Origin: Neiella litorisoli
GTDB lineage: Bacteria > Pseudomonadota > Gammaproteobacteria > Enterobacterales > Neiellaceae
NCBI RefSeq assembly: GCF_014773395.1
Contig: NZ_JACXAF010000001.1
Coordinates: 310,001-374,000 of the forward strand
Reading direction: 5' to 3'
Length of the DNA: 64,000 nt
Shown here: piece after piece, positions 14,201 through 64,000 of the stretch
How positions within the stretch are numbered: position 1 is the stretch's first letter
Layout of the letters: each line of letters opens with the position of its first letter
Made by a program: the position numbers and the translations under genes
Notes under the pieces: model-generated
What the model was told of the DNA's origin: nothing
The model's database searches: none
Seen by the model: the letters and a program-made list of their open reading frames with translations, nothing else

Positions 14201-14540
14201 TGTCAGTCACGATTATGCCAGCGATGTCGCCGAGCGCATTTGTCAGTCGGTGCGGCAACAGCCGATCCGAATCAATGATCAATTAGCGCTCGATATTACC
14301 TGCTCGGTCGGCTTTGCCTCCTACAATTGTCAGGATCAGCAAGGTCAACAACTCAGCTGGCAACAAATCATCGATATCGCCGACATCAATCTCTATTGTG
14401 CTAAAAATTCTGGCCGCAACGGCTGGGTAGGGGTTGCTGGTGATCATCAGCAAGTAAGCGATGTGGGCAGTTACCGCCAGCAAATTGAACAATGCCAGAT
14501 CAAGGTGTTGACCTCGCTAGAGTCACCGCTGCAATGGTAA
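11256..14540 (+). CDS. Beta-propeller sensor diguanylate cyclase
   Basis: 1094 residues. After a signal peptide (to about 36), two-component-regulator propeller repeats of the form W-x-x-T/L-x-x-G-L-x-R (for example LWFGTERGLSRYN, LWIGTNGGGLSQF) fill residues 50-720. A Y_Y_Y domain follows (about 760-825), then one membrane helix (WAYSLYVALILSVVLAYVH), a coiled coil and a GGDEF domain. The active site is GGEEF (972-976), and the inhibitory site RASD (963-966) is intact, so it should make c-di-GMP. The periplasmic propeller fold often recognises glycans or their breakdown products in polysaccharide loci; that link is inference here. ATG 11256 has a GAGG site. Confidence 0.93.
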   Translation: MGFSTPLIIRLRSPLVWLVSLATCLWLISSASNAAAIPEQVTFQQRQIAVETSIGAVLDMHQDQYGFLWFAGRLGLARFDGYDFEIFRYDDTNPATISADTVHDIAQDSDGNLWFGTERGLSRYNYASENFDNFYPAPLSGQANTPVYRIHFDSKVNDNTNHDIMWLATGRGLCLGPNQTTDAICHSNDQIPATMQQPEVFDLAADQTGHLYLASSKGLISWHQGSGVVEHFAEQPNVSDQLQTSLIRSVFVDSQNQIWVGSEQGLLKYLPASQNFEFYPTQLDASASATQDSPSSAAVWDIYEDRQGILWVATDGFGVQWLNRELDQLMTLGSFANNSYSLGSNAVRSILETASGDMWFGLYPSNVSVFERHSSPFYGVTDTRINEIIEPINKVRSIVEDHHGHLWLALDGNGLARYRPENGQYDFFHYQPGNIASLSSDGVLDLHLDNDGWLWIVAGVSGITKYHIDSDRFVRLPPLHQDAASHHINHYWTIYRDRANTLWLGSIGGGLTRVGEGGQSSQVFEHDPNDPTALPDINVWAMREDSQGNFWLATEQGLARMDREQQDFKVYKTTLDDPSSLHSDQIRAIFEDAQGRLWIGTNGGGLSQFHYHNETFSTITREHGLPSDVVVSITEDRQGNLWLGTDRGLVSFDPESRLIRNFDSSFGIAGNVFNVGAVLFSSFGEIFFGGQSGYTRFDPTEIKARNARPKVVFTDIEILNEPVPINERGALRQSISVADEVWLNHRQNVVSFEVSALNFRSSAANRYAYKLDGFDQNWIQLGNHRRITYTNLDAGTYTLRAKAQNREGRWSAQDATITLHVRPAPWRTWWAYSLYVALILSVVLAYVHNQNKRRQELEQRVRERTQELHQANEKLTQISFSDPLTGLNNRRFFEQFIDADVAEVTRRYESWQRQSDQPPPANSDLAFFLIDLDHFKQVNDVHGHSAGDIVLKRIAELLKQATRASDYVIRWGGEEFLVLSRFVSHDYASDVAERICQSVRQQPIRINDQLALDITCSVGFASYNCQDQQGQQLSWQQIIDIADINLYCAKNSGRNGWVGVAGDHQQVSDVGSYRQQIEQCQIKVLTSLESPLQW

Positions 14541-45691: not shown

Positions 45692-45878
45692 GATTGGTGG
45701 AGCACTCAGTTTGAACGAAAACCTTCCGCAGCAGGGAAGCTGCGGCAGAGTCTACAGGGGACAACTTTATAAAGTTGTCGCGTAGGCAGGAAGCCGGAGC
45801 GGGGCTTTGCAAAGGGCAGGAGCCCGTCAGCAAAGTATTCACGACGTGTCTGAGTTTGAACTGAGCGCTTCACCAATC
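45692..45878 (+). repeat. Structured dispersed element, subtype C, with 73-base insert
   Basis: Arms 45692-45715 and 45855-45878 pair over 24 positions. Inner hairpin CCGCAGC-AGGGAA-GCTGCGG. The core TCTACAGGG / AAGTATTCACG is split by 73 bases that begin with a perfect palindrome GACAACTTTATAAAGTTGTC. The copy at 46082-46268 has the same insert (46150-46222); the copy at 48890-49003 lacks it. Confidence 0.75.
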
Positions 45879-46346
45879 GGCAATGCTTCGCTGAAACTTG
45901 CTGCCGATTACATGCCGAAATAAAGAAAGTCAGGAGTCGGTAACGCAAGAGGAGCAATAGTTCCTTTAGCAAGACGCCGTAAAATCTTCCATGATGGCTC
46001 TACTGCCGCATCCCTGCGGCAGAAGCTTGCTGCAGAAACTATCGCACCTCTTACTTCAGTCCGGCGTTAACTCCATACCTAGATTGGTGGAGCACTCAGT
46101 TTGAACGAAGACCTTCCGCAGCAGGGAAGCTGCGGCAGAGTCTACAGGGGACAACTTTATAAAGTTGTCGCGTAGGCAGGAAGCCGGAGCGGGGCTTTGC
46201 AAAGGGCAGGAGCCCGTCAGCAAAGTATTCACGACGTGTCTGAGTTTGAACTGAGTGCTTCACCAATCGGCAATGCTTCACTGAAATTTGCTGCCGATTA
46301 CATACCGAAGATAAAAAGCTAGAAGTTGATAACCCAACTTCTCCGG

Positions 46347-46362
46347 TGTTTCATGTGAAACA
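46347..46362. promoter_or_regulatory. parS-like 16-mer
   Basis: TGTTTCATGTGAAACA differs at one position from the ParB-binding parS consensus TGTTNCACGTGAAACA. It abuts the stop codon of the STAS-like gene and the end of the repeat tract. It may be a real ParB site or a chance inverted repeat; no parAB genes are in the window. Confidence 0.4.
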
Positions 46363-46743
46363 TCAATCTTGCTGCAGCCAGGCCAAAGCGTCCTTGTCAT
46401 CTCGGAAATAACCTCGCTGCACTCCCGGCACATGTTGCCAAAGCGGCTCCAAAACAAACTCACCATAAGCACAATGAGCCGCGCAGCAGTAAGCCGCCTT
46501 GCGCACCCCAATCGCCGCCATAGCAGAATGTAACTCTCGGATATCTTGATAAGCTTCAGGAATGGCAATGGCACTATCGCGAATGTCTGTCAGTGCCAAT
46601 TGTGGCATTTCCGCACCACTGTTGATGGCGCGTTTTAACGCCTGTCGTAACTGCCGGATCCCCTCCTCATTAAAGGCATCCAGCAAAACTAATCGAATAA
46701 GCGGCCCATTGAGCTCAATATGCCACTGACCGTGCGCGCGCAT
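46363..46743 (-). CDS. STAS/SpoIIAA-like small protein
   Basis: 126 residues, soluble. The alternating beta/alpha pattern (WHIELNGPLIRLVLLDAFNEEGIRQLRQAL, then PQLALTDIRDSAIAIPEAYQ, AAIGVRKAAYCCA, YFRDDKDALAWLQQ) fits the SpoIIAA-like STAS fold seen in many uncharacterised gammaproteobacterial proteins. No catalytic residues. AAGGA lies upstream of ATG 46743. Divergent from the ABC exporter gene, inside the segment bracketed by repeats. Confidence 0.6.
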   Translation of the reverse strand: MRAHGQWHIELNGPLIRLVLLDAFNEEGIRQLRQALKRAINSGAEMPQLALTDIRDSAIAIPEAYQDIRELHSAMAAIGVRKAAYCCAAHCAYGEFVLEPLWQHVPGVQRGYFRDDKDALAWLQQD

Positions 46744-46901
46744 GTTGTCCGTTCCTTTGTCAACGTCGCTATTACTGCTAGCAGCTTACTTATCACAAGT
46801 TTGCGCCGGTTGCTGCCGCCCAGTATTGATTTCCGCCAATTTTAATACCTTCTGGTATGATGAACGCCCCTTATTCGACAACCAGCCTCGAGTCACCCTG
46901 C

Positions 46902-48728
46902 ATGTTTCGTTTTTTTGAGCGCCTGATTGAGCCATTTCCCAATCAGCCCGACACACCACCACCGACTGGGCTATGGCAGTTCTGCCGTTACTACACCCGC
47001 GGAGCAGGGCGCTTTTTACTCTTGATGTCGTTTTTCACCGCCATCATTGCCATTATCGAAGCCAGCTTATTTGGCCTCGTCGGCGTCCTTGTTGACTGGC
47101 TCACCACACTCGAACCAGACACCATTATTGAGCAACACGGCTGGTCGCTAGTCATTATTGGGGTGCTGGTGGCCATTGGAATACCGCTGCTTGAACTACT
47201 CGGCTCAACCATTAAGCACCAAACCCTGCTGGGTAACTACCCCATGCGGATCCGGTGGTTAGCGCATAACTTTTTGCTGCAACAAAGCATGGAATTTTAC
47301 CAGAACGACTTGGCCGGCCGGTTATCGACCAAAGTCATGCAAACCGCATTGGCCGTACGTGAAACCGTCATGAAAGTGCTCGACGTGATGCTCTACGTCG
47401 GCGTGTATTTTTTCTCTATGGTCGGATTAGTCGCCGCTGCTGATCTGCGCTTGGCCGCGCCATTGCTGCTCTGGCTGCTGGCTTATATTCTAGTGTTACG
47501 TTACTTCCTGCCTCGGCTCAAACTGGTATCAGAGCAACAGGCCGATGCCCGCGCCACCATGACCGGCGCTGTGGTGGACAGCTATACCAACATCAACACC
47601 GTCAAACTGTTCTCCCACGCTCGCCGCGAATCGGACTATGCCAAAGGCACCATGAAAACCTTTCTCGGCACCGTCTACCCGCAAATGCGCTTGGTCACCA
47701 AGCTCGACTTTGCCGTGGCCCTGATTAACTACAGCTTGCTGGTGATGATTGCCGCTGTGGCCATTTACCTTTGGTCTAAAGGCGACATCACTACCGGCGC
47801 GATTGCTGTTGCGCTGGCTTTATCGCTGCGTTTGCAGGGCATGTCGGTGTGGATCATGTGGGAAGTGGCGTCACTGTTCGAGAACATCGGCACAGTGCAA
47901 GATGGCATGAATACTCTATCGCAGCCGGTGACGATTAAAGACCAAGCCAATGCTAAACGACTGACGGTGCCACAGGGCAAAATTGAGTTTCGTGATATCC
48001 ATTTCAGCTATGGCGATAAAACAATTTTCAACAACTTAAACCTGACGATTAAGCCCGGCGAGAAAATCGGGTTAGTCGGTCGTTCTGGCGCAGGCAAGTC
48101 AACCTTGGTCAACTTGCTGCTGCGGTTTTATGACCCCAACTCGGGCCAAATACTGATTGACGATCAGGCTATTCAACAGGTTGAACAAGACAGTTTGCGC
48201 AGCAAAATTGGCATGGTGACGCAGGATACATCGCTGCTGCACCGCTCAGTGCGCGACAATATTTTGTTTGGTCGCCCAGATGCGAGTGATGCGGAACTGA
48301 AACAAGCCGCTCGCCGTGCCGAGGCCGATGAGTTTATTCAATCGCTGGAAGACAACAAGGGCCGCCACGGTTACGACGCCATGGTTGGAGAGCGCGGCGT
48401 AAAGCTATCCGGCGGCCAACGTCAACGCATTGCAATTGCTCGGGTATTACTCAAAGATGCGCCGATTTTGGTGCTTGATGAGGCAACGTCGGCGTTGGAT
48501 TCGGAAGTGGAAATGGCGATTCAGCGGAGTTTGAATGAACTGATGGCTGGTAAGACGGTGATTGCAATTGCTCACCGGCTATCAACCATCGCCGCTTTGG
48601 ATCGACTGATCGTGCTCGACGAGGGCCGCATCATCGAGCAGGGCAGCCACCAGCAACTGCTGGCTCAAAATGGCACTTACGCTCGTTTGTGGCAGCACCA
48701 ATCCGGCGGCTTCTTGGGATTGGAGTAG
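46902..48728 (+). CDS. ABC exporter, fused membrane and ATPase domains
   Basis: 608 residues from ATG 46902, with an upstream ATG at 46857 as alternative. Six-helix type-1 exporter domain (about 30-330), then an ATPase with Walker A GRSGAGKSTL, signature LSGGQRQRIAIARVLL and Walker B PILVLDEATSALDS followed by the H-loop AIAHRLS. Half-transporter of the MsbA/multidrug type, probably a homodimer that exports a lipid, drug or peptide. The substrate is unknown. It is enclosed with the STAS-like gene between direct-repeat tracts. Confidence 0.9.
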   Translation: MFRFFERLIEPFPNQPDTPPPTGLWQFCRYYTRGAGRFLLLMSFFTAIIAIIEASLFGLVGVLVDWLTTLEPDTIIEQHGWSLVIIGVLVAIGIPLLELLGSTIKHQTLLGNYPMRIRWLAHNFLLQQSMEFYQNDLAGRLSTKVMQTALAVRETVMKVLDVMLYVGVYFFSMVGLVAAADLRLAAPLLLWLLAYILVLRYFLPRLKLVSEQQADARATMTGAVVDSYTNINTVKLFSHARRESDYAKGTMKTFLGTVYPQMRLVTKLDFAVALINYSLLVMIAAVAIYLWSKGDITTGAIAVALALSLRLQGMSVWIMWEVASLFENIGTVQDGMNTLSQPVTIKDQANAKRLTVPQGKIEFRDIHFSYGDKTIFNNLNLTIKPGEKIGLVGRSGAGKSTLVNLLLRFYDPNSGQILIDDQAIQQVEQDSLRSKIGMVTQDTSLLHRSVRDNILFGRPDASDAELKQAARRAEADEFIQSLEDNKGRHGYDAMVGERGVKLSGGQRQRIAIARVLLKDAPILVLDEATSALDSEVEMAIQRSLNELMAGKTVIAIAHRLSTIAALDRLIVLDEGRIIEQGSHQQLLAQNGTYARLWQHQSGGFLGLE

Positions 48729-48752
48729 TTGGCAACGTCAAGAGCAGGCTCC

Positions 48753-49240
48753 GCAAGGGAACCAATAGTTCCTTTAGCAAGACGCCGTAAAATCTTCCTT
48801 GATGGCTCTACTGCCGCATCCCTGCGGCAGAAGCTTGCTGCAGAAACTATCGCTCCCCTTACTTCAGTCCGGTGCTAGCGCCATACCTAGATTGGTGGAG
48901 CATTCAGTTTGAACGAAGACCTTCCGCAGCAGGGAAGCTGCGGCAGAGTCTACAGGGAAGTATTCACGACGTGTCTGAGTTTGAACTGAGTACTTCACCA
49001 ATCGGCAATGCTTCGCTGAAACTTGCTGCCGATTATATGCCGAAGATAAAAAGCTTGAAGTTGATAACGCAAGGGAACCAATAGTTCCTTTAGCAAGACG
49101 CCGTAAAATCTTCCATGATGGCTCTACTGCCGCATCCCTGCGGCAGAAGCTTGCTGCAGAAACTATCGCACCCCATACTTCAGTCCGGTGCTAGCGCCAT
49201 ACCTAGATTGGTGTAGCCTTAGTTTGAACGAAGACCTTCC
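48753..49240 (+). repeat. 316-bp tandem repeat, one full and one partial copy
   Basis: Same sequence family as the 390-bp units at 45.5-46.3 kb but without the 73-base insert, giving a 316-base period (units start near 48754 and 49070). Contains subtype-B elements 48753-48862 and 49069-49178 (minus) and subtype-C element 48890-49003 (plus). A second C left arm near 49207 is truncated. Confidence 0.8.
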
Positions 49241-49291
49241 GAACTTTTCGAAAGATTCAGAGCAATCAAACAGCCCACAGAGCTTCGAAGA

Positions 49292-49492: not shown

Positions 49493-50776
49493 ATGGCCCA
49501 GCCGAAAACCATCAAACTGCCGATCACCAATATTTACGCCTACGGCGACTACACCGCCACACTGCATATTGGCAGCGAACAAAGCCCCGTCAACCTGATC
49601 CTCGACAGCGGCAGCTCAACCTTAGTCATGAACCAAACTTGCTACCACGCCACCGGCGATACCCTGCTCGAACCAACCACATTAGCGCAAGAAATCACCT
49701 ACGGCATCGGCGGCTGGGACGGCCCGGTCATCAATACTCAAGTCACCGTTGAGCATGCCCATGACGCCATCACCATGGACAATTGCCCCGTTGCGCTGAT
49801 CTCCAATGAAAACCAAAACAAAACCTTCGGCAAAGCCAACGGCATTCTCGGTTTAGCGTATCGTCACCTCAACAAAAGTTATGATTTAGCCCACTACCTC
49901 GATCATCATAATATTGAGCCGCCACACACCTATCCGTGGCCATTTGGTACACCAGATTGTGTTGAAATGGGCAACGCACATTTTAATAGTGACGATCTCA
50001 AGCAGTTCAAAAAATTCCTCTGGCAACAACCAGAAAAAGACTTGCTGCCATATTTCACCCAAATGGAAGAACTCGGGCTAACCGCCAACAAATGGTCGTT
50101 TTACAGCAAGCGATCCAGCGTTCACGTTACCGATGCCAAAGCCGATGACGAAGCGCTGAAAGCCGATCCGCTCAACCAAGGTTACTTAATCCTTGGCGGC
50201 GGCGAAGAGCATACCGAACTGTATCAGGGTGAGTTTCAAACCATCGACGTTAAGCATGATTGCTACTACAACGTGGTGCTGAATAAGTTTCAGGTGGGTA
50301 GCGGAGCACCGGTGGCGGCTGCGCCAATCGATCAAGCTCATGAACACAATTACTTTACCAATGCCATTGTCGACACCGGCTGTTCGGTGCTGGCACTGAC
50401 CCATGATTTGTTTGAGCACATGAAGCAAGGGTTTACCGCCATTTCGCAAGAATTTAATGCCTTAATCGAACCATTTAAAGACACCAATTTTATGGCAACC
50501 GGCATTGATGCCAGCAAAATCAATCTTAATGATTGGCCCGATTTACACTTTCATTTTGATAGTGAAACCGGCGAGCAAGTCTTAACCTGCAAACCCAGCG
50601 ATTACTGGCAATTTAACAGCCCCGCGCCCGGTAAAGCAGTGTTTAAAATCATTAGCCAGCTACCGAATTGGCCAAACCAAAGTCTAATAGGCCTGCCGCT
50701 ACTCAATGATTACTATGTGGTATTCGACCGAGCCGAGCATGAATTAGGTGTGATTCGTTTTGCACCCGCCAGTTAG
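49493..50776 (+). CDS. Pepsin-like aspartic protease, shewasin-like
   Basis: 427 residues with both catalytic motifs of the bilobal A1 family: LILDSGSSTLV (Asp38) and AIVDTGCSVLAL (Asp294), plus a flap-like segment with Tyr (EITYGIGGWDG). There is no signal peptide and no prosegment before the first lobe, so the enzyme should be cytoplasmic, as reported for the bacterial pepsins called shewasins. A1 pepsins are rare in bacteria. Lying 128 bases upstream of a putative borosin precursor, it is a candidate maturation protease; this is inference. AAGGA-type ribosome site before ATG 49493. Confidence 0.9.
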   Translation: MAQPKTIKLPITNIYAYGDYTATLHIGSEQSPVNLILDSGSSTLVMNQTCYHATGDTLLEPTTLAQEITYGIGGWDGPVINTQVTVEHAHDAITMDNCPVALISNENQNKTFGKANGILGLAYRHLNKSYDLAHYLDHHNIEPPHTYPWPFGTPDCVEMGNAHFNSDDLKQFKKFLWQQPEKDLLPYFTQMEELGLTANKWSFYSKRSSVHVTDAKADDEALKADPLNQGYLILGGGEEHTELYQGEFQTIDVKHDCYYNVVLNKFQVGSGAPVAAAPIDQAHEHNYFTNAIVDTGCSVLALTHDLFEHMKQGFTAISQEFNALIEPFKDTNFMATGIDASKINLNDWPDLHFHFDSETGEQVLTCKPSDYWQFNSPAPGKAVFKIISQLPNWPNQSLIGLPLLNDYYVVFDRAEHELGVIRFAPAS

Positions 50777-50904
50777 CGCTTACTTTGAGCAAGAGCAATA
50801 AACAATCGCAATCAGCACTTGATAAATTTTTGTTAATCACTAACATGAAACGCTCACTTTTTGACCACCACTAACACAATTTAGTAAGTAGTAAGGGAAG
50901 TATT

Positions 50905-51099
50905 ATGTCTAGTTGGGTAGCCACTCTTGAACAACTCGGTGCAAACGCATCAAACCAAAACGCAGAAACTCTGGCAGCAATGAAAGAACAATTCATGGCC
51001 ACTTGTCAGAACCTTGTTAAGCCAATGAACATGATTATTTTAGCGCCAGATGAAGATGGCACTGGCGAGACGGGTATTAGCCAAACCGAAACATTTTAA
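50905..51099 (+). CDS. Putative borosin precursor peptide 1
   Basis: 64 residues with a strong AAGGGAAG site. The N-terminal part WVATLEQLGANASNQ resembles the corresponding part of precursor 2 (DMLEKLGQDASLQ) and, as I recall it, the start of Shewanella SonA (QLGQDAQL). Residues 40-51, PMNMIILAPDED, match the core of precursor 2 at the same residue number. An acidic/Thr-rich tail follows. Likely substrate for backbone N-methylation on Met/Ile/Leu by the enzyme at 51825. Nine bases before the GNAT gene. Confidence 0.75.
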   Translation: MSSWVATLEQLGANASNQNAETLAAMKEQFMATCQNLVKPMNMIILAPDEDGTGETGISQTETF

Positions 51100-51108
51100 A
51101 AAAACGGT

Positions 51109-51663
51109 ATGACTGCCAGCTGCAACCAGCAACAGCCATTAGCCGAGAAAGAAGTGCCCCAGCAGGCTCTCTTTCCTCGGCTAACTACCCAGCGCTTAGA
51201 GTTGGCCCCACTTACTGAGCATGAGCGATGGCTTTATCAGCGCTTATACACAGACCCCAAAATAATGCGCAATACCGCCCCACCTTTCTCAAAGGAGAAA
51301 GTGGATGCTATGTTCGAGCACACACTAAAAGTTATAGCGTCTCCGCCACCCAAAGCTCTGGTTTGGGTTATCAAACAACAAATCGATGGGCTACCCATTG
51401 GGATCATCTGCTTTTACGAAATAGAAGCAGATTTAAGTAATGCCAAAATTGGCATCATGTTGCTGACAGAAGCCAATGGCAAACTATTCCCAGAAGAAGC
51501 CATGCAAGTAGTCATGGACTTTGGTATTCAACAATGGGGATTAAAACGAATCACCGCTGAGTTTATGTCTCGGAATTTAGCGACGGCGAGATTTGTGAAA
51601 AAACTTGGTTTCGAGTTTTTACCATCGGATTCCGATACCCAAATTTGTTGCTACACACCATAG
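51109..51663 (+). CDS. GNAT N-acetyltransferase, RimJ/RimL-like
   Basis: 184 residues of the Acetyltransf_3 type. The start region TTQRLELAPLTEHE and the end SRNLATARFVKKLGFE are typical of RimJ/RimL-like enzymes, which acetylate amino groups, often protein or peptide N-termini. The usual acetyl-CoA loop (R/Q-x-x-G-x-G/A) is poorly conserved: LLTEANGKLFPEEAMQ is what stands there. Nine bases after precursor 1, so very probably in the same transcript; it may acylate the peptide product or provide self-protection. Both roles are inference. Confidence 0.8.
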   Translation: MTASCNQQQPLAEKEVPQQALFPRLTTQRLELAPLTEHERWLYQRLYTDPKIMRNTAPPFSKEKVDAMFEHTLKVIASPPPKALVWVIKQQIDGLPIGIICFYEIEADLSNAKIGIMLLTEANGKLFPEEAMQVVMDFGIQQWGLKRITAEFMSRNLATARFVKKLGFEFLPSDSDTQICCYTP

Positions 51664-51824
51664 CGACGGTTGACATAGGTTTGAAACCAAACAGAGCGGC
51701 ACCATCGTGAATCAGCGTTTAGGCCAAAATAATTGCCAACTACCAGCATATTGGTGTGATCTAAAGGTTCCAACATTGCTCAATTATTGTTAGTTTTGTG
51801 TTTTTGCTAAAGGGAGTCAAAAAA

Positions 51825-52622
51825 ATGTCAGGGAGTCTTGTTTGTGTCGGCACGGGAATGATGCTGGGCGCTCATATCTGCCCCCTTAGCCGCAGTTATA
51901 TTGAACAAGCTGACAAAGTCTTTGTACTAGTCTCTAACAGTCTGGTCGAAGCTTGGATTGGTGAAATGAACGCCAATTGCCAAAGTCTCCAACCCTTCTA
52001 CTCAGAAGGTAAAAACCGTAATAAAACTTACAATGAAATGGCCGAAGCCATGATGGCTGAAGTACGCGCCGGCAACAAAGTGGTGGGTGCTTTTTATGGT
52101 CACCCCGGCGTTTTTGCCTTGGTACCCCACAAAGCCATTGATTGGGCCAGAAAAGAAGGTTTTGAAGCCCGCATGTTACCCGGTATTTCGGCCGAAGACT
52201 GTTTAGTGGCGGACCTTGGCTTAGACCCAGGTAAAACCGGCTGCATTCAATATGAAACCAGCCAGTTTATGTTTTATAAACGCCAGCTCGATCCAGCGGC
52301 GCTACTTATACTCTGGCAGGTGGGTCTTACCGGTGATCGCAGCCTCAGTAAATTCTCAACCGATAGCGGCAAACTTCAAATTCTGGTGGACATGCTGGCA
52401 CAGTACTACCCGCTTGATCATGAAGTGATTCTTTACGAAGCGCCGGTATTACCTATTGATGATACCCGCATTGACCGAATTCCATTACGCGACTTGCCGC
52501 AGGCCGAGTTATCTCAGCACACCACCATGGTAGTGCCCGCCTGTCAGCCAATGCAGCGTAATGAACCCATTTTGGCCAAGCTGGCCAAATTAGAAGAAGA
52601 AACTCAATTAAACCCAGCATAA
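51825..52622 (+). CDS. Borosin-type peptide backbone N-methyltransferase (SonM-like)
   Basis: 265 residues from ATG 51825 (AAAGGGAG eight bases upstream); the frame extends to 51798 without support. It belongs to the tetrapyrrole methylase fold: SLVCVGTGMMLGAH, FYGHPGVFALVPHKAI, MLPGISAEDCLVADLGLDPG. From memory it matches Shewanella oneidensis SonM across its length (YIEQADKVF, GISAE, FEASQFMF versus YETSQFMF, YPLDHEV). SonM methylates backbone amides of the separate peptide SonA, using S-adenosylmethionine. No cobalamin or siroheme genes are nearby, which argues against a tetrapyrrole role. Precursor 2 starts 14 bases downstream. Confidence 0.88.
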   Translation: MSGSLVCVGTGMMLGAHICPLSRSYIEQADKVFVLVSNSLVEAWIGEMNANCQSLQPFYSEGKNRNKTYNEMAEAMMAEVRAGNKVVGAFYGHPGVFALVPHKAIDWARKEGFEARMLPGISAEDCLVADLGLDPGKTGCIQYETSQFMFYKRQLDPAALLILWQVGLTGDRSLSKFSTDSGKLQILVDMLAQYYPLDHEVILYEAPVLPIDDTRIDRIPLRDLPQAELSQHTTMVVPACQPMQRNEPILAKLAKLEEETQLNPA

Positions 52623-52636
52623 TAAGGATTAAATTT

Positions 52637-52939
52637 ATGCCGTCTATTATCGATATGTTAGAAAAACTGGGGCAAGACGCTAGTTTGCAAACGCCAAAAG
52701 CTATGCAGTCAGCAAAAGCAGATTTGGCTGAGCAGGTCCGTATTCAAAATCAACCAATGAATGTCGTTGTTGTCGTTGCAGATGAAGACAACGACGATCT
52801 TACCCAAGCATCCTTGGAAAAAGCGGCGGGTATGAAAGTTGGAGTGCCAACCAATGTAATTATCTTGCCGGCAGATGATGATGAAGGTGGAGATGAAAAA
52901 GAATCAGATGATACTCCATCTAACTCGAAAGCTGCTTAA
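52637..52939 (+). CDS. Putative borosin precursor peptide 2 with two cores
   Basis: 100 residues, AAGGA upstream. The N-terminal recognition-like segment (IDMLEKLGQDASLQ, residues 5-18) is followed by a first core PMNVVVVVADED (40-51) and a second core PTNVIILPADDDEGG (71-85), then an acidic Ser/Asp/Glu tail. The second core resembles that of precursor 1 (NVIILPADDD versus NMIILAPDED). Val/Ile/Leu runs are plausible N-methylation sites. The methyltransferase gene is 14 bases upstream and the GGDEF gene 15 bases downstream. Confidence 0.8.
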   Translation: MPSIIDMLEKLGQDASLQTPKAMQSAKADLAEQVRIQNQPMNVVVVVADEDNDDLTQASLEKAAGMKVGVPTNVIILPADDDEGGDEKESDDTPSNSKAA

Positions 52940-52954
52940 TAGAGATATAAGCAA

Positions 52955-54739
52955 GTGAGCAATTGGAAGCACATATTTGTTTATGCATGGGCGTTATGTG
53001 CTTTCTTTTCCCCTTTTTGCTTTTCAGAAAACAAATTTGAAAACACAATAAATAATCTTTATGAAATAAAAAGCACCAACCAAATTGAGTATAACCATGG
53101 AATTGCATTACTTGAGAGAAATTCAGAACAGTTAACACCCCACCAATTAAACGAACTTGAATATTTTAAAGCTTATAGAGAATTTTCATCAGGTAACGTC
53201 CCTCGGTCGCTAGATATTGGCCAAAAAATAATCAACAACTCTGAAGATCTGAACTTATTAATGAGAACCCATGTACTTATGGGAACAGCTTCACTTTACT
53301 CCAGAAATTGGCAAGTTGGATTGGATAGCTTGATGTTTGTAACATCAAATATTGAAAAGATTTCCGATTCCAGCTTAGCTCAAAACGCCGGTTTATTTGT
53401 TCCTTTCTTTTACGTCCAAGCCCAGAATTATGAAATGGCAAGAATATCGCTGTCTAATTTGGATGTAGGCTCACTTAACACTAGAAATAAGTGTATGTGG
53501 TATCAGCTTTCAGTTGAGTCATTCGATAAAAACTTGGCCTTGGAAAAAGGAACGGGACTAGTTGAGAGAGCTATCGATGCCTGCGATTCGGCGAATGAAG
53601 TTTATGTATCTAATATTATTAGACTCCTCTACTTCGAGTCCCTTGTCGATGTTAAACCATTACAAGTCATAAAAGAGTCGGAAGCTATTGTCTATGAACT
53701 TAACGACTTAGGCAAAGAGATACTTTTGCCAGGTTATTACGCATTACTAGCTAAAGCATACTTAAATATAGGAAAAAATTTAGAATCAGAGTCATACGCA
53801 AAAGAGGCTTTGATTTTTGATAATTCTCCGGGAGCAACAAAAAGCACCATAACTGCATACTGGGTCTTGTACAGGATTTACTATATTCAAGGTTTGTATG
53901 AGTCATCCCTGAATTACTATGTTAAGTACTCAGAGAGGAACAGCATTTATTTGAATGATTTGGAAGCTCGCAACTACTCTGTCAGGCTTGCGGAGCATAA
54001 AATTAAAGAAATAGAGCGAGAAAACAAATCTCTTGCCGATCAAAATGATCTATTAAAATTAGAACAACAACTAACCCAATCAGAAAAAGAAAACCAACAG
54101 CTATTTATTGTTTTATTAGCGACCTGTTTAGTATTGCTCGCAGCTTATTTATACAAAGCCCGCCAAAACCAATTACGGTTAAAACAATTGGCCGAATTTG
54201 ATGCTCTTACCGGTGTTTATAATCGTGGCCACTTTACTCAGCTTGCCAAAAGCGCACTGACCTTTGCTAAAGACAGCAAACAATCGGCCAGTGTGGTGTT
54301 ATTTGACCTCGATTTATTTAAGAAGATTAACGACACCTACGGTCATGCCTGTGGTGACTGGGTGCTCAAGCAAGTCGCCGCAGCTTGTCAGGAGTTAACC
54401 CGCAAAAATGACGTCTTTGCCCGAGTTGGTGGCGAAGAATTTTGCTTCTTACTCCTTGGTTGTGACAGCCATACCGCGCTGGACGTGGCAGAGAAATGCC
54501 GCAGAGCCATCAATAACATCGACACCAAAGAATCAGGTTTTGATTTTAAAGTCAGCGGCAGTTTTGGTGTCAGCGACAACGCCCTGTCTGGCTACGAGCT
54601 GGATCGCATTCTCGCCGATGCCGACGAAGCCCTGTATTGCTCTAAGTCGAGTGGCCGCAATACCGTCTCCTTATATGACCCTTCCGCCGAACACACCTCA
54701 TTACTTAAACCAGATGACTCGCCAGCCCCGCTTGGGTAA
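52955..54739 (+). CDS. Helical-repeat sensor diguanylate cyclase 1
   Basis: 594 residues from GTG 52955. Signal peptide, then a TPR-like alpha-helical periplasmic region (about 30-370), a coiled coil, one membrane helix (LFIVLLATCLVLLAAYLY) and a GGDEF domain with GGEEF (RVGGEEFCFLLLG) and an intact inhibitory site RKND. It should make c-di-GMP. The N-terminal part is clearly AT-richer than its surroundings, with many AAA/ATA codons, while the GGDEF part is not. It starts 15 bases after precursor 2, so it may be transcribed with the borosin genes. Paralogue of the next gene. Confidence 0.88.
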   Translation: MSNWKHIFVYAWALCAFFSPFCFSENKFENTINNLYEIKSTNQIEYNHGIALLERNSEQLTPHQLNELEYFKAYREFSSGNVPRSLDIGQKIINNSEDLNLLMRTHVLMGTASLYSRNWQVGLDSLMFVTSNIEKISDSSLAQNAGLFVPFFYVQAQNYEMARISLSNLDVGSLNTRNKCMWYQLSVESFDKNLALEKGTGLVERAIDACDSANEVYVSNIIRLLYFESLVDVKPLQVIKESEAIVYELNDLGKEILLPGYYALLAKAYLNIGKNLESESYAKEALIFDNSPGATKSTITAYWVLYRIYYIQGLYESSLNYYVKYSERNSIYLNDLEARNYSVRLAEHKIKEIERENKSLADQNDLLKLEQQLTQSEKENQQLFIVLLATCLVLLAAYLYKARQNQLRLKQLAEFDALTGVYNRGHFTQLAKSALTFAKDSKQSASVVLFDLDLFKKINDTYGHACGDWVLKQVAAACQELTRKNDVFARVGGEEFCFLLLGCDSHTALDVAEKCRRAINNIDTKESGFDFKVSGSFGVSDNALSGYELDRILADADEALYCSKSSGRNTVSLYDPSAEHTSLLKPDDSPAPLG

Positions 54740-54877: not shown

Positions 54878-56626
54878 TTGATTAGTAAACTTGCAAAACG
54901 CTGGTGCTTGTTAGCGCTGTTATTCAGCAGTTCGGTTATCGCAACACCGGAGCAGCAAGATTACAGCCACATCGCGACGCCCGATCTGATTGATTCAGCG
55001 GTCGCCTTACGCTCGTCCAATATTGAGCAACTAACAGCCATGATTGCTGAGTTGGAATCACGTCAGCTAAACGGCGCAGAAGTAAGCTATTTATCTTATT
55101 TACAAAGCTATTACCTAACGTTGCAAGGCCGTTTCGCAGAGGCTGAGTCGAGTTTGACTGCACTTGCGGATGAGACTCGCTCAATCAACGTCGCAGTCTT
55201 AGTCAATATTTCACTTGTCAACGTTTACACTGCAACCGCAAACTGGTCAAAAGGCTTATCAGCAGCTAACAAGCTAACTAAGCTCATCACCCGGTTGCCC
55301 GAATCGGACAACCTTCATCATTACTCAACAGCTATTCTCGCCCAATTTTTCAACAATATTGAACAATATGAACTAGGTTATAAAAACGCTCAAAAGATTG
55401 TCGAGCTAGATCTCAAAGGTCGCCTAGGTTGCGCAGCCGGTATTTTGTCGATGAACGCCGCTAACAATCTAGAAATACCGTTAAATGATAAATCCATTAT
55501 CGACACCACGCTAAGTTCTTGCTCGGGTATGGAGTTACTATATCTCCCTTCTAAGCTCATCGTCTCAGAACGTTATTTGTTGACCAAACAACCGCAACTG
55601 ATTGTTGATTTGTTAGAACCTCATCTCGTTGAGTTTGAAGGTTCAGACACGGTACTCAACTTTGTTGAAATACATTACTTACTTGCTAGCGCGTATTTGC
55701 AACTAAACCAAGTCGCTCAAGCTGAAGCCATGCTTGAGCGTTTAACGACTCTCACCGAAGCCGATGTCAATCTGGCTAAACTTGCTGACGGCTATTTGCT
55801 ATTGGCCGATATTCGCCAAAACCAAGGCCGTACCGAGCAAGCGCTCAGCTTAATGCGGCAGCATTTACAATTGCGCGAACAATACCTCAATAAAGCCACG
55901 TCAAAGCGTTTGGCTTATCAATTGGCGCAACAGCAAATTTCGGAAAAAGAGAGCGAAATTCAGGCGCTTCACGATAAAAACGAACTGCTAAAAACGCAGG
56001 AAGATTTACTTGAAGCGCAGCGCACCAATGATCGCCAGTTTATTGTCGCCTTGTGTATCACCGTTTTTCTGCTTGGCATGTTTTTGTATCGCAGCCGTTC
56101 GATTCAGCAAAAACTCAAGCAACTATCAGCCTTTGATGGCCTCACCGCTATTCACAACCGCAGCCAGTTTATGCGTCTTGCTGAGCGGGCGCTGAGTTAT
56201 GCCGAAGACAACAAGCAAGCGGTTAGCTTGGTGCTGTTTGACCTTGACCAGTTTCAAAAGGTCAACGATACCTACGGCCATGCCCGCGGCGACTGGGTGT
56301 TGCAACAAGTGGCCAAAGCCTGCCAGCAACACACGCGCCGCAATGACCTGCTGGCCCGCACCGGCGGCGAAGAGTTCTGTTTATTGCTGCTCGGCTGCAA
56401 TGACAAGCGCGCGATAGAGGTTACCGAGAAATTTCAGCAAGTTATTCATACCATTGATGCGGGCTCGCCAGGCTTTGAAGCCACCATGACCGCCAGCTTT
56501 GGTATTACCGACAACCGGCTGTCTGGCTACGGTCTCGATCGCCTGCTCGGCGACGCTGGCGCAGCGGTAAAAATGGCTAAGGCCAATGGTCGTGACCAAT
56601 TGGCGGTATTTGCGCCGGATAAATAA
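54878..56626 (+). CDS. Helical-repeat sensor diguanylate cyclase 2
   Basis: 582 residues from TTG 54878 with AAGG seven bases upstream. Same architecture as the preceding gene: signal peptide, helical repeats, coiled coil ([18 protein letters not shown]), membrane helix ([17 protein letters not shown]) and GGDEF with GGEEF ([14 protein letters not shown]) and inhibitory site RRND. Base composition is like the rest of the window, unlike paralogue 1. The signal sensed is unknown. Confidence 0.88.
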
Positions 56627-58074: not shown

Positions 58075-59418
58075 TTAAAGCATTAGTTCTTCGTGCTGGA
58101 CTTGGTTTCGACCGGCACTTTTTGCTTTATACAATGCCAAATCGGCCTGCTTGAGTAGCGCGTTAATCCGCTCTTTAGCAGGCTGAGCTGCCATTGATGT
58201 CAGCTGACTAGCACTGACAAAGGTGGTGCCAATACTAATGGTCACTTGAGGGAGGTGATCGGAAACCCCCATTTCAATGTTCTGCCGATAGCGCTCCGCA
58301 ATGGGCGCAATGTGGTGGATTTTAGAATTGGGCAGCACCACCACAAACTCCTCGCCACCTAAGCGCGCCACCATATCCAAACCACGGGTGTTGAGCTTGA
58401 GCATGTCGGCAACTTCCATCAGCACCTTGTCGCCGGTGTCGTGACCGTGAGTGTCATTGATTTGCTTAAAGTGGTCGATGTCGATCATCAACAGGCCCAA
58501 ACCACCGTCCATCATTTTCATGGAGTCGAGCAGTTGTGCCATTTCGGTAAAAAACGCCCGCCGATTAGCAATACCGGTCAAGTTGTCGGTATTGGCCTGA
58601 TGCTCTAACTGAATGGTGGTTTGCATCAGGGTTTGGTTGCGATGTTCAAGCTGCTGCTGAATTAATTTGTATTCCGTAACGTCCTGAAAAACCCCAAACA
58701 GAGCCACCACGTCGCCTTCGGAGTTCACTTCAACATCGCCTTTACTGCGAACATAACGCACCTGACTGTGTTTGTTCAGCAGACGCAGCTCAAATTCAAA
58801 ACTGCTTTTTTGTTCGATTGCTTGCGAAATAAAGCGAGTCACTTTATCGCGGTCATCCGGGTGGTAGAAGTTCACCGCATCTTCAACATTGGGCTGGTAA
58901 AGGCTTCTGTCGACACCGTGAATACGATAAACCTGATCGGACCAAGACAGCTGATTGCTGATCAGATCCACACTCCAATAACCAATGCCTGCCATTTGCT
59001 CAGTCATGGTGAGCATGTGCAAGCGCTCGCGGGCCGTTGATTCAGCCTGAACCCGCAACGACATGTCTCGCACCACGCCAACATAAGCAGGCGCGCCAGC
59101 AATGGTTTGCTTGGCAATGGCAATTTCAATGGGAAACAAGGAGCCGTCGCGGCGCTTAGCCAGCACCTGGCGACTTTGACCGACGTTGTGAATGGTGCTG
59201 CCGTGGCTGTTCATCATGACATCATGATTATCGGCAATCGATTTCGGCATCAGGGTTTTGACATCAAGACCAACCAACTCGCCGATGTCGTAACCAAACA
59301 TCTTGTCGGCTGCTTCATTGGCGATTTGAATCACGCTGTCGGTGCCAATCACAATGACACTGTCGGCCAGCATGTTGAACGATTGATGAAGTGTGTTTTG
59401 CGATTGTGTGTCTGTCAT
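58075..59418 (-). CDS. PAS-PAS diguanylate cyclase
   Basis: 447 residues, cytoplasmic. PAS 1 (about 12-130; AADKMFGYDIGELVGLDV, RDGSLFPIEIAIAK), PAS 2 with PAC (about 150-260; HPDDRDKVTRFI, GVFQDVTEYK), a short coiled coil and GGDEF (about 285-445; NLTGIANRRAF, GGEEF in ARLGGEEFVVVLP). Inhibitory site RGLD is intact. No membrane segment, so it senses an internal cue. The stop is separated from that of glmU by one base. Confidence 0.93.
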   Translation of the reverse strand: MTDTQSQNTLHQSFNMLADSVIVIGTDSVIQIANEAADKMFGYDIGELVGLDVKTLMPKSIADNHDVMMNSHGSTIHNVGQSRQVLAKRRDGSLFPIEIAIAKQTIAGAPAYVGVVRDMSLRVQAESTARERLHMLTMTEQMAGIGYWSVDLISNQLSWSDQVYRIHGVDRSLYQPNVEDAVNFYHPDDRDKVTRFISQAIEQKSSFEFELRLLNKHSQVRYVRSKGDVEVNSEGDVVALFGVFQDVTEYKLIQQQLEHRNQTLMQTTIQLEHQANTDNLTGIANRRAFFTEMAQLLDSMKMMDGGLGLLMIDIDHFKQINDTHGHDTGDKVLMEVADMLKLNTRGLDMVARLGGEEFVVVLPNSKIHHIAPIAERYRQNIEMGVSDHLPQVTISIGTTFVSASQLTSMAAQPAKERINALLKQADLALYKAKSAGRNQVQHEELML

Positions 59419-62066: not shown

Positions 62067-62611
62067 TGCAGCGGCCAACAACGATATTAAAGGCGTGGAT
62101 TGGATCGCTGTTGGTGCTGTGGTTGATGAGCTGTGGCACGGCCATGGCTCATACCTATCACGCCATTCGCACCACCATGACGTTGAATGAGCAAACGGGC
62201 TCGGTGGAGATCATTCACCGAGTATTTGCCAACGATTTGGCCGCAGTGCTAGGCAAAGCGAAAAATCAGCGGGTTGAACTGTCTGACTCAGCCGAGCACC
62301 AGCAATGGACTGCGCAATATTGGCAGCGCTACTTTGCCGTGCTTGATCATCATGAGCAGCCACTTGAGCTGAGTTGGGTGGGAATGGAAATTGATGACCA
62401 CTACGTCTGGGTCTATCAGGAATACCAAGGTGATGTTGCCAAGCTGATAGCAAGCGACATTCACAACGGTTTATTGATGGGCCAGTTCGATCACCAAATC
62501 AATACTGTTGATGTGGTGTTGGCCGATCATCAATCGGCATTGGTGTTTTCAGAAGCCAAATTGCGCCAACCCATTCAGCACGATTCAGCGCCAACAGAAC
62601 ACCATCACTAA
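62066..62611 (+). CDS. DUF6702 family periplasmic protein
   Basis: 181 residues. Signal peptide ending near GTAMAH, with a Cys (LMSCG) that could make it a lipoprotein. The body (HTYHAIRTTMTLNEQTGSVEIIHRVFANDLAAVLG) matches the DUF6702 pattern. Homologues often sit next to M1-like peptidases, as here (ATG overlaps the peptidase stop). Function unknown; a partner or substrate-presenting subunit is possible. His-rich tail (EHHH). The stop overlaps that of the convergent GGDEF-EAL gene by 2 bases. Confidence 0.8.
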   Translation: MQRPTTILKAWIGSLLVLWLMSCGTAMAHTYHAIRTTMTLNEQTGSVEIIHRVFANDLAAVLGKAKNQRVELSDSAEHQQWTAQYWQRYFAVLDHHEQPLELSWVGMEIDDHYVWVYQEYQGDVAKLIASDIHNGLLMGQFDHQINTVDVVLADHQSALVFSEAKLRQPIQHDSAPTEHHH

Positions 62612-64000
62612 CTAAGCGGCCGAATGTGCTGCACTGGCGACTGATGTTTGTCGAGGTTATCGAGTAAATAGGCAGTCGCTTGTTCATGCCACATGGGCTT
62701 AGCAAACAGGTAGCCCTGACCGAAATCACAGTGGTAACTGTGCAAAGTTCGCCACTGATCTTCGTTTTCGATGCCCTCTGCCACCACTTTGACTTTCAGG
62801 CTATGGGCCAGTGAAATCGTTGCTTTGACAATTTCCTGAGTACCTTCTTGTTCTTCCCCGCGATTAATCAGGGAATTGATAAAACTTCGGTCGATTTTCA
62901 GCACCTGCACCGGCAGTTGATCAAGGTAAGACAAAGACGAATAACCGGTGCCAAAATCATCAATCGCCAGTTCAATGTGGCGCTCGCGCAATGAGCCAAG
63001 GATGTCATTGACCGCCTGCGTGTTTTCCATCAGCGCGGTTTCGGTGATCTCAAGCTTGAGGTGACGGCCATTGGTGCCGGTGCGCTGGAGGATGACATCC
63101 AGCTTTTCGATTAAGTTGGGTTGGTTCAATTGCACCGCCGATAGATTGACCGCAATGGTCGGTAGCCGGTCTTCGTCAACCAACTCACGCCACCGCTGCA
63201 ACTGCTGACACGCCTGCTCAAACACCCACAAGCCCATGTCGTAAATTTGCCCGGTTTCTTCTGCCAGCGGAATGAATTTATCCGGCGGCACCATGCCTAA
63301 TTCGGGATGCTGCCAGCGCATCAGCAATTCAAAGCTGACCAAGCGTTCGGTTTTGAGGCACACAATCGGCTGGTAAGCGGCTTTGAACTGGCCTTTATCA
63401 AGTGCCTGATACAAATCCACTTCCAGTGCAGCCATCGCCACTTCGTGTTCACGCATGTGACTATCGAATACCTGATAGGTGCCGCGGCCCTTGTCCTTGG
63501 CTTTGTACATGGCGATATCGGCATCACGCAGCACTTCTTCTGGCTTGGCATATTGGCGTTTGCAGTGAACCATGCCGACACTGACGCGGAAGAACACCTG
63601 CAATTGGTCAATGGCAAAGGGCTCTTCAAATTTGCGCACAATCAGCTCGGCAATGTCGATTAATTGCTGCTCGGACTCGACCGCACGCACCAAAACGGTA
63701 AATTCATCGCCACCTAAACGCACCGCCGTACAGTGCTCAGGCAACAGCGATTGGAGCCGGATAGCGGCGTCCAGCAACAGGCTGTCGCCGAGCAGATGAC
63801 CATGGGTGTCATTGACCTTTTTAAAGCGGTCACCATCAAGGAACAGTAAACCAAAGGCATAATGGCTGCGCTGAGCATGGTCGATGGCATGCTCTAACTG
63901 TTGCAACAGCCAAGGCCGGTTGGGCAATCCGGTCAGTGGATCATGAAACGCCATATGGAACAATTTGGCTTCGGCAGAGCGCCGTTCTTCAACTTCTACC
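62608..64000 (-). CDS. GGDEF-EAL protein, N-terminus beyond right edge
   Basis: The frame runs uninterrupted to the window end (VEERRSAEAKLFHMAFHDPLTG precedes the domain start), so the internal Met at 63963 is not the start. GGDEF domain with GGDEF (VRLGGDEFTVLV) but no RxxD inhibitory site. The EAL domain has ELL in place of EAL (SFELLMRW), LEITETALM and AIDDFGTGYSSLSYLDQL, so phosphodiesterase activity is likely. The sensory part lies outside the window. Confidence 0.92.
   Translation of the reverse strand, partial: VEVEERRSAEAKLFHMAFHDPLTGLPNRPWLLQQLEHAIDHAQRSHYAFGLLFLDGDRFKKVNDTHGHLLGDSLLLDAAIRLQSLLPEHCTAVRLGGDEFTVLVRAVESEQQLIDIAELIVRKFEEPFAIDQLQVFFRVSVGMVHCKRQYAKPEEVLRDADIAMYKAKDKGRGTYQVFDSHMREHEVAMAALEVDLYQALDKGQFKAAYQPIVCLKTERLVSFELLMRWQHPELGMVPPDKFIPLAEETGQIYDMGLWVFEQACQQLQRWRELVDEDRLPTIAVNLSAVQLNQPNLIEKLDVILQRTGTNGRHLKLEITETALMENTQAVNDILGSLRERHIELAIDDFGTGYSSLSYLDQLPVQVLKIDRSFINSLINRGEEQEGTQEIVKATISLAHSLKVKVVAEGIENEDQWRTLHSYHCDFGQGYLFAKPMWHEQATAYLLDNLDKHQSPVQHIRPLS

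Follow-up and report, generated by a model that had tools for sequence, protein, structure and literature searches.

Gene content and organization of the locus

The 64,000-nucleotide stretch of the Neiella litorisoli genome analysed here (contig NZ_JACXAF010000001.1, positions 310,001 to 374,000; hereafter the window, whose own numbering is used throughout) carries a gene cassette in which a putative split borosin system, consisting of a SonM-family peptide methyltransferase and separate precursor peptides, is combined with a pepsin homologue, a GNAT-fold protein and transmembrane GGDEF-domain proteins. In the list of open reading frames (ORFs) of the window all of these genes lie on the plus strand. 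The features are as follows:

49493..50776, plus strand: family A1 pepsin homologue, 427 amino acids (Pfam Asp, PF00026, E = 1.1e-18, above cut-off; alignment of 11 sequences; hydropathy)
50905..51099, plus strand: precursor peptide 1, 64 amino acids, short borosin-type leader, core KPMNMIILAPDED (precursor profile, E = 2.8e-4)
51109..51663, plus strand: GNAT-fold protein, 184 amino acids, acyl-CoA loop NGKLF (Acetyltransf_3, E = 8.3e-20, above cut-off)
51825..52622, plus strand: SonM-family alpha-N-methyltransferase, 265 amino acids (7ltc, E = 2.8e-82)
52637..52939, plus strand: precursor peptide 2, 100 amino acids, leader MPSIIDMLEKLGQDASLQ, two cores with acidic flanks (precursor profile, E = 3.7e-9)
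52955..54739, plus strand: sensor diguanylate cyclase 1, 594 amino acids (GGDEF, E = 1.9e-40; motifs; structural model; solenoid match)
54878..56626, plus strand: sensor diguanylate cyclase 2, 582 amino acids, architecture like that of cyclase 1 (family profile, E = 4e-164; transmembrane segment; motifs)
51070..51771, no strand: divergent block 1 relative to Neiella marina J221, mostly the GNAT gene (no blastn match)
52796..53985, no strand: divergent block 2 relative to N. marina J221, covering the C-terminal half of peptide 2 together with the sensor half of cyclase 1 (no blastn match)

The original prediction, made from the sequence alone, had proposed a borosin cluster composed of the first five genes. 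All five exist at these coordinates and on this strand, and the GNAT start codon (ATG at 51109) lies 9 bases past the stop of peptide 1, as had been claimed; 14 bases separate the methyltransferase stop from the start of peptide 2. What had been overlooked are the two neighbouring transmembrane GGDEF genes that follow peptide 2 and close the cassette, and their presence changes the likely purpose of the cluster.

A SonM-type methyltransferase and its precursor peptides

Among solved structures the best match of the 51825-52622 product, METHYLTRANSFERASE, is SonM (7ltc, 279 bits), followed by OphMA types, and the 25 Protein Data Bank (PDB) matches listed consist throughout of SonM, fungal OphMA-type enzymes and related peptide N-methyltransferases. 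Its Tyr59, Arg65 and Tyr69 align with the catalytic Tyr58, Arg67 and Tyr71 of SonM and do not vary among the 23 sequences aligned, which bears out the proposal of a SonM-like enzyme. The three SonM residues are said to stabilise the amide (PMC8429565). The same protein matches the Pfam TP_methylase model (E = 4.2e-18), being one of four such matches in the genome, and this fold is what would speak for a tetrapyrrole (cobalamin) or diphthamide enzyme. That assignment is practically untenable: SonM and OphMA types, and not cobalamin or diphthamide enzymes, head the structural matches, and with the NCBIfam tetrapyrrole models the protein reaches 12-19 bits where the cut-offs are 163-391 (with YabN, 43 bits where it is 525).

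The precursors were characterized with an alignment of 32 sequences from pepsin-linked loci, including both window peptides. Against the PDB, the seven best of nine matches of this profile are SonA chains (E = 4.6e-4 to 2.3e-3), the best of them spanning SonA residues 1-53, and an hhalign comparison of the family with 16 SonA-like precursors gives a probability of 96.3%. An independent profile, drawn from 30 precursors of other genomes with the two window peptides left out, was run on the 697 window ORFs of at least 30 amino acids; it ranks peptide 2 first and peptide 1 second, with the next ORF at E = 0.85, so that the assignment exceeds chance. With peptide 2 alone the relationship to SonA goes undetected, as phmmer retrieved only chance matches and no SonA from the PDB, and the family profile is needed to recover it; a Foldseek search with a low-confidence model of peptide 2 also gave no match. 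Both window peptides are members of a precursor family with a SonA-like leader. Together, the SonM-family enzyme and the precursors with a SonA-like leader support, at the sequence level, the assignment of the locus to the split (type IV) borosins. Peptide 1 is also found in N. marina J221 and is not among the features listed at the N. holothuriorum locus (locus listings L046, L047 and L193).

Peptide 2 contains two core-like stretches, QPMNVVVVVADED and VPTNVIILPADDDE. Cores were compared across 87 precursor-cyclase units (98 originally, 93 without near-identical cyclases, less six judged SonA-like; at least one retained unit, L250, is from a GNAT-less locus), of which 86 could be registered on a Pro that is fixed by the search pattern itself. 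The common core reads hydrophobic-hydrophobic-Cys-hydrophobic-Leu-hydrophobic-Pro-Ala-Glu-Asp-Asp-Glu, where the Cys is found in 55 units and the second residue ahead of the Pro is Leu or Met in 55 of the 86. In L133, L135, L144 and L147 a related acidic stretch (EPEDED or similar) directly precedes the end of the precursor, suggesting that the product probably keeps an acidic end.

A different small ORF (L058:11430-11867), beside one of the two SonM copies of Colwellia psychrerythraea GAB14E, consists of about five tandem HKAxFxANDGQEFTMSAEVEN-like units and might perhaps be a multi-core precursor.

The pepsin homologue and the GNAT-fold protein

The catalytic Asp38 (DSGSS) and Asp294 (DTGCS) and the flap Tyr70 of the pepsin homologue are invariant in the 11 aligned sequences, and hydropathy analysis revealed no strongly hydrophobic, signal-like segment; the description of a signal-less A1 aspartic protease just upstream of the peptides was therefore accurate. 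The related shewasins show activity that is inhibited by pepstatin (PMC4814920). An Ala at position 218 is expected to give neutral activity (PMC2761423); in the window protein the corresponding place is taken by Cys297, following the DTG of 294-296. Proteolysis of the precursors by this enzyme is plausible.

The GNAT-fold protein matches its Pfam family above the cut-off, as listed above. GxG/A is the canonical acyl-CoA loop motif of GNATs; the window protein has NGKLF in its place, and the canonical form is retained by 22 of the 94 family members aligned. Of the suggestion that this protein N-acylates the peptide, the fold and the constant association with the cassette stand, whereas the loop is non-canonical, so that N-acylation is but weakly suggested.

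Conservation and co-occurrence of the cassette genes

Contextual evidence was gathered from two surveys. In a scan of a named genome collection, 80 of 88 confirmed pepsin loci were kept, and at 43 of these a SonM gene is present in the fetched flank. GNAT, precursor and GGDEF genes occur together at 42 of the 43 linked loci (GNAT at 42, precursor at 43 and GGDEF at 43), counts that are partly so by construction because the three profiles were seeded, from matches to the window proteins or from precursors, in the same 80 loci; the precursor profile was drawn from 30 of the linked loci, leaving 13 independent. Homologues elsewhere are thus accompanied by the peptides, whose absence would have spoken against the borosin assignment. 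The pepsin and SonM genes are on the same strand in 41 of the 43 pairs, with a median gap of 649 bases and 38 gaps under 1 kb, and the loci display several gene orders and strands. Hosts of linked cassettes include Shewanella, Colwellia, Litorilituus, Thalassotalea, Alteromonas, Bowmanella, Salinimonas, Aliiglaciecola and Arenimonas.

The second survey covered 394 genomes of the order, mostly other than those seeding the profiles. SonM is present in 94 and the pepsin in 37 of them, and all 37 pepsin genomes have SonM, against 57 of the other 357 (Fisher 1.4e-26). Among 369 genomes of the class, SonM is found in 10 and the pepsin in 2 (the window genome counted), both with SonM. SonM loci were fetched from all 94 genomes of the order, the window and L046 included, yielding 142 methyltransferase frames, of which 47 have a GNAT gene within 3.2 kb on either strand. 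This GNAT-linked subtype is present in 36 of the 37 pepsin genomes, also where the genes lie apart, the single exception (G794) being a short contig with a typical core; stated conversely, of the 44 genomes that have a GNAT-linked SonM locus 36 also have the pepsin, as does 1 of the 50 that lack such a locus (4.6e-17). Of the 47 GNAT-linked frames, 46 have a same-family GGDEF gene at a distance of at most 3.5 kb.

As genomes are not independent, counts were also made by genus. All 11 pepsin genera fall within the 24 SonM genera among 115 (3.5e-9), while the association of pepsin with the GNAT type reaches only p = 0.0045 at this level. The best control for kinship is the comparison within genera, where the pepsin is present in 8 of 9 genomes with and 0 of 17 without the GNAT-linked type, and in a second genus in 11 of 11 and 0 of 7. 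In that second genus the pepsin is within 4 kb of SonM in none of the 11 genomes, so that physical linkage alone is no explanation of the coupling; over the order as a whole the two are adjacent in 21 of the 37 pepsin genomes. The idea that pepsin and GNAT lie beside the methyltransferase by coincidence could draw on inherited synteny if a single genus were concerned, but is contradicted by the order-wide co-occurrence, its recurrence across genera, the within-genus coupling without adjacency and the varied gene orders and strands, and we consider it highly improbable. The recurrence of pepsin, GNAT, methyltransferase and precursor together, which the original prediction had named as a check, is accordingly observed, and membership of the pepsin in the borosin system is strongly supported by both co-occurrence and synteny.

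For 29 of the 37 remaining loci of the first survey, SonM lies elsewhere in the genome. These 29 genomes have 45 SonM places, 30 of which were fetched with up to about 1.5 kb on each side, and a GNAT gene is present at 22. The eight GNAT-less places comprise a SonA-type locus (L142), two with an acidic core (L132 and L147), two long fused frames (L153 and L154) and three (L145, L148 and L155) without a precursor-profile match in these flanks. No SonM was found in the genomes of the other eight loci (L073, L076, L077, L079, L082, L101, L124 and L125), of which L073 is on a truncated contig that still has a precursor and GGDEF.

In the two fused frames the SonM-type domain is part of a longer protein: L153:1408-3105 (566 amino acids, followed by repeat-like sequence), from the genome of pepsin locus L115, a SAR324 metagenome-assembled genome (MAG), and L154:55-2520 (822 amino acids), from that of L102, a Synechococcus MAG. 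The pepsin loci L076, L077, L082, L101 and L124 have no other cassette-profile match nearby and no SonM in the genome; they come from MAGs labelled Planctomycetales, Solibacteraceae, Acidobacteriaceae, Chitinophagaceae and Oscillatoria, and their pepsins either have another role or represent misbinned contigs.

Architecture of the sensor cyclases

Cyclase 1 has a signal-like N-terminus (judged by eye), one transmembrane segment near residues 380-400 and a GGEEF motif with RxxD. The GG[DE]EF motif with its RxxD inhibitory site is present in the stretch RKNDVFARVGGEEF and in a second stretch of 14 residues. In an AlphaFold model of cyclase 1 (pLDDT 89.3), helical repeats extend to about residue 311 and are followed by a long helix (315-414) across the membrane stretch and by the GGDEF domain, predicting an alpha-solenoid sensor. 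Cys180 and Cys210 are invariant in 40 aligned cyclase sequences, and a periplasmic location of the solenoid would fit these two residues.

The 50 Foldseek matches listed for cyclase 1 are all GGDEF-type entries, and matches to the solenoid were obtained from a second structural comparison, in whose list the GGDEF domain predominates, leaving it to say little on whether other folds are absent. In this comparison, model residues 24-345 align with the pheromone-bound Phi3T Rap structure 8rsv (Z 22.8, root-mean-square deviation 4.2, 308 residues), and comparable scores are reached with Phi3T Rap 8rst (Z 22.5) and degron-bound APPBP2 8jal (Z 22.8). Repeats of this kind match widely, and as far as the model goes these matches are only suggestive of a sensor that could detect a peptide.

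Divergence and co-inheritance of precursors and sensors

The closest named match of the window locus is that of N. marina J221. In this one strain pair the upstream ABC gene (94% identity), pepsin (96%), methyltransferase (95.5%) and peptide 1 (88%) are well conserved, against 25% for the GNAT, 63% for peptide 2, 61% for cyclase 1 and 75% for cyclase 2. Within cyclase 1 identity per 50 columns is 10-48% across the first 350 columns and 72-96% beyond, and the two blocks listed above, which lie between well-conserved stretches, have no blastn match. A similar picture is seen in five Shewanella loci (L065, L069, L074, L104 and L112), where identity is 96-99% for the methyltransferase, 90-93% for the pepsin and 89-100% for the output domain of the cyclase, as opposed to 34-97% for the GNAT, 33-76% for the precursor and 59-83% for the sensor. 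GNATs diverge as fast as precursors.

Rank correlations were computed across loci on the last 75 amino acids of whole precursors. In a Colwellia-type set of eight loci with 16 units, up to three per locus, precursor similarity follows that of the adjacent sensor (rho 0.51; permuted 0.01, standard deviation 0.09, 0 of 2000 permutations), the best sensor partner is also the best precursor partner in 11 of 16 cases, and precursor similarity does not track the methyltransferase (rho -0.22). The fetched DNA of this set holds a single pepsin and one or two methyltransferases, with precursors, GNATs and cyclases multiplied in several loci. For 209 pairs from the 87 units with methyltransferase identity of at least 75%, same-locus pairs among them, rho is 0.69 (permuted mean 0.35, 0 of 2000), and the partial rank correlation of precursor with sensor in 78 units is 0.25. 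The more general proposal of precursor-sensor coevolution everywhere was dropped, given the inclusion of same-locus pairs and the confounding with descent in Shewanella. Such correlations reflect co-inheritance of units and are not proof of binding.

The joint travel of precursor and sensor bears on a reading that we regard as quite improbable, namely that the cluster makes an antibiotic, metallophore or other metabolite for secretion, its precursor matured by the pepsin and the cyclases regulating the cluster without peptide sensing. The SonM/SonA enzyme evidence fits it equally well, and omphalotin, a fungal borosin, is nematocidal (PMC11285071). It does not sit well with the Colwellia-type precursors, each of which has its own sensor cyclase following it, nor with the loci listed, among which no exporter or immunity gene was noticed by eye except the GNAT.

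A proposed pathway and its alternatives

Our leading interpretation, held tentatively, is that the locus represents a complete pepsin-associated split borosin subtype that makes a peptide signal. The SonM-type enzyme, by extension from SonM itself, would bind the helical leader and methylate backbone amides of the hydrophobic core; the cytoplasmic pepsin, in the role we prefer for it, would cut near the core and free a short peptide with an acidic end; the GNAT-fold protein might act on or bind this peptide, acyl transfer being uncertain; and the peptide would get to the periplasm, where the solenoid domain of the adjacent transmembrane cyclase could bind it, with a change in cyclic di-GMP (c-di-GMP).

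The comparisons reveal that the gene set is conserved, that its members co-occur almost obligatorily, and that GNAT, precursor and sensor diverge fast while pepsin, methyltransferase and cyclase output remain constant. From constant enzymes next to a variable precursor we infer that the former process any such peptide; this speaks for the pepsin as a common tool of maturation, and precursor and sensor would set signal identity. It is conceivable, and we put this forward with reserve, that the whole constitutes a Gram-negative pheromone system, in which a SonM-methylated, pepsin-released peptide is read by a periplasmic Rap-like solenoid-cyclase and peptide and sensor are exchanged as a specificity block; the GNAT would belong to that block in the one strain pair examined closely.

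Maturation of the peptide is the most likely role of the pepsin, and being its target the less likely one. The latter, which we hold to be rather unlikely, would make the N-methylated peptide a protease-resistant, substrate-like inhibitor that silences the cytoplasmic pepsin and replaces the absent propeptide. Shewasins favour Leu at P1 (PMC4814920), the cores are hydrophobic and mostly have Leu or Met two before the Pro, and methylation at such a bond would block cleavage; moreover, a typical prosegment is missing in shewasins and a latent form is possible (PMC4814920). A 2024 borosin paper may also link a pepsin-like peptidase to the function of borosins. An inhibitor would, however, leave unexplained both the cyclase after the precursors and the fact that peptide and sensor diverge next to a pepsin of 96% identity. 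Pepsin and peptides are, furthermore, all acidic (net charges -27, -6 and -12), and one genome (G713) keeps core and cyclase without any pepsin.

Several observations weigh against the peptide-signal interpretation. Cyclases are near many GNAT-less SonM genes (64 of 95), so that a link to a sensor also exists outside this subtype, and since solenoid repeats score high against many proteins the Rap match is a lead. In Shewanella (15 units) the precursor-sensor correlation (rho 0.45, 4 of 2000) equals that of precursor with methyltransferase and is exceeded by that of sensor with methyltransferase (rho 0.82); being confounded with descent, it says little. GNAT similarity does not follow that of the precursors (two clades gave rho values of 0.03 and 0.22, the 209 close pairs -0.23), which speaks against a peptide-specific GNAT. 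Shewasins have an optimum of pH 3.5-4.6, and shewasin D is cytoplasmic (PMC4814920); an acid optimum makes easy cytoplasmic processing less likely and is awkward for a maturation protease. No conserved cut site was seen ahead of the core in the precursors compared, and no conserved exporter was noticed by eye among the loci listed, where no systematic search was made.

The pepsin is also missing from 8 of the 44 GNAT-type genomes (G019, G056, G062, G614, G655, G713, G731 and G740), G713 being the one already mentioned, and must therefore be dispensable at times. No replacement protease was seen by eye among the ORFs of these eight genomes, for which no family scan was run. In G614 the cassette (L202:3033-5562) is decaying, with a pepsin remnant, GNAT and methyltransferase frames and two near-identical precursors with altered cores, and no cyclase is present within the 9 kb fetched.

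Flanking features of the window

Upstream of the pepsin, the window encodes an ABC exporter (46857-48728), which was noticed again only at N. marina J221 among the cassettes listed; a role as peptide exporter is possible but unsupported. Two direct-repeat families with three copies each (224 nt at 45926, 48734 and 49050; 120 nt at 45800, 46190 and 48925) occupy both sides of this gene (45800-49273), and repeat-related sequence adjoins the same gene in N. marina J221. Four more GGDEF-type frames lie outside the cassette: 58078-59418 (minus strand), 37227-39605 (plus), 11256-14537 (plus) and 62611-63963 (minus).

Relationship to known systems

Parts of this system are known already, namely split borosins, shewasins and the GGDEF domain that is drawn in borosin schemes (PMC11395268), and part of the pepsin-borosin finding may already be published. 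A literature search, beyond the reach of which most subscription papers lay, found no paper joining a pepsin or shewasin with a borosin or backbone N-methyltransferase. The title of a 2023 paper reportedly announces a bacterial borosin product. Pepsins of bacteria have been on record since 2009 (PMC2761423). What shewasin D does in vivo was, as of 2016, described as needing study (PMC4814920), and as of 2021 a final product was known for no type IV borosin pathway (PMC8429565). The near-obligate tie of the pepsin to one borosin subtype makes its role testable with two purified proteins and suggests for the bacterial pepsins, long without an explanation, a first role that can be put to the test; the divergent peptide and sensor blocks provide a concrete test of split borosins as signals. 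If true, the pheromone interpretation would assign a physiological function to bacterial pepsins and make signalling a function of borosins.

The closest relative is the type IV SonM-SonA pair of Shewanella oneidensis, which is alike in its discrete methyltransferase, catalytic residues, separate precursor and homologous helical leader (PMC8429565). The window system differs in its shorter leaders and the two cores of peptide 2, and the SonA-like loci examined have a different core and no GNAT, unlike the window cassette; S. oneidensis is moreover listed without a pepsin homologue (PMC2761423). SahM of Shewanella sp. HN-41 has been named as a type IV borosin enzyme (PMC11285071). The HN-41 genome (L067) has the cassette, with pepsin, GNAT, a SonM-type gene that is a candidate for SahM, a precursor with core DIVCLMVPAEDEQ and GGDEF; pepsin, GNAT and cyclase are not mentioned in the available part of the SahM account (PMC11285071).

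The window pepsin shares its enzyme family with shewasins A and D as well as with the oceanic pepsins of bacteria (PMC4814920, PMC2761423), and the cassette pepsin of Colwellia psychrerythraea ND2E (L080; 441 amino acids, D36, Y68, D300) agrees with the values tabulated for C. psychrerythraea (PMC2761423). The accessible portions of these two accounts mention neither borosin genes nor gene neighbours.

On the sensing side, the predicted sensor of cyclase 1 aligns, in the model, over 308 residues with pheromone-bound Phi3T Rap, one of the solenoid pheromone receptors. Rap is a soluble cytoplasmic protein; the window solenoid, by contrast, is followed by a membrane-spanning helix and a GGDEF domain. 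Loci of the agr and comQXP kind, which are polymorphic and serve peptide signalling, likewise have a variable middle of peptide and sensor within constant flanks, a pattern seen here in one strain pair; the present system is distinguished from them by its other parts, its Gram-negative host and its c-di-GMP output.

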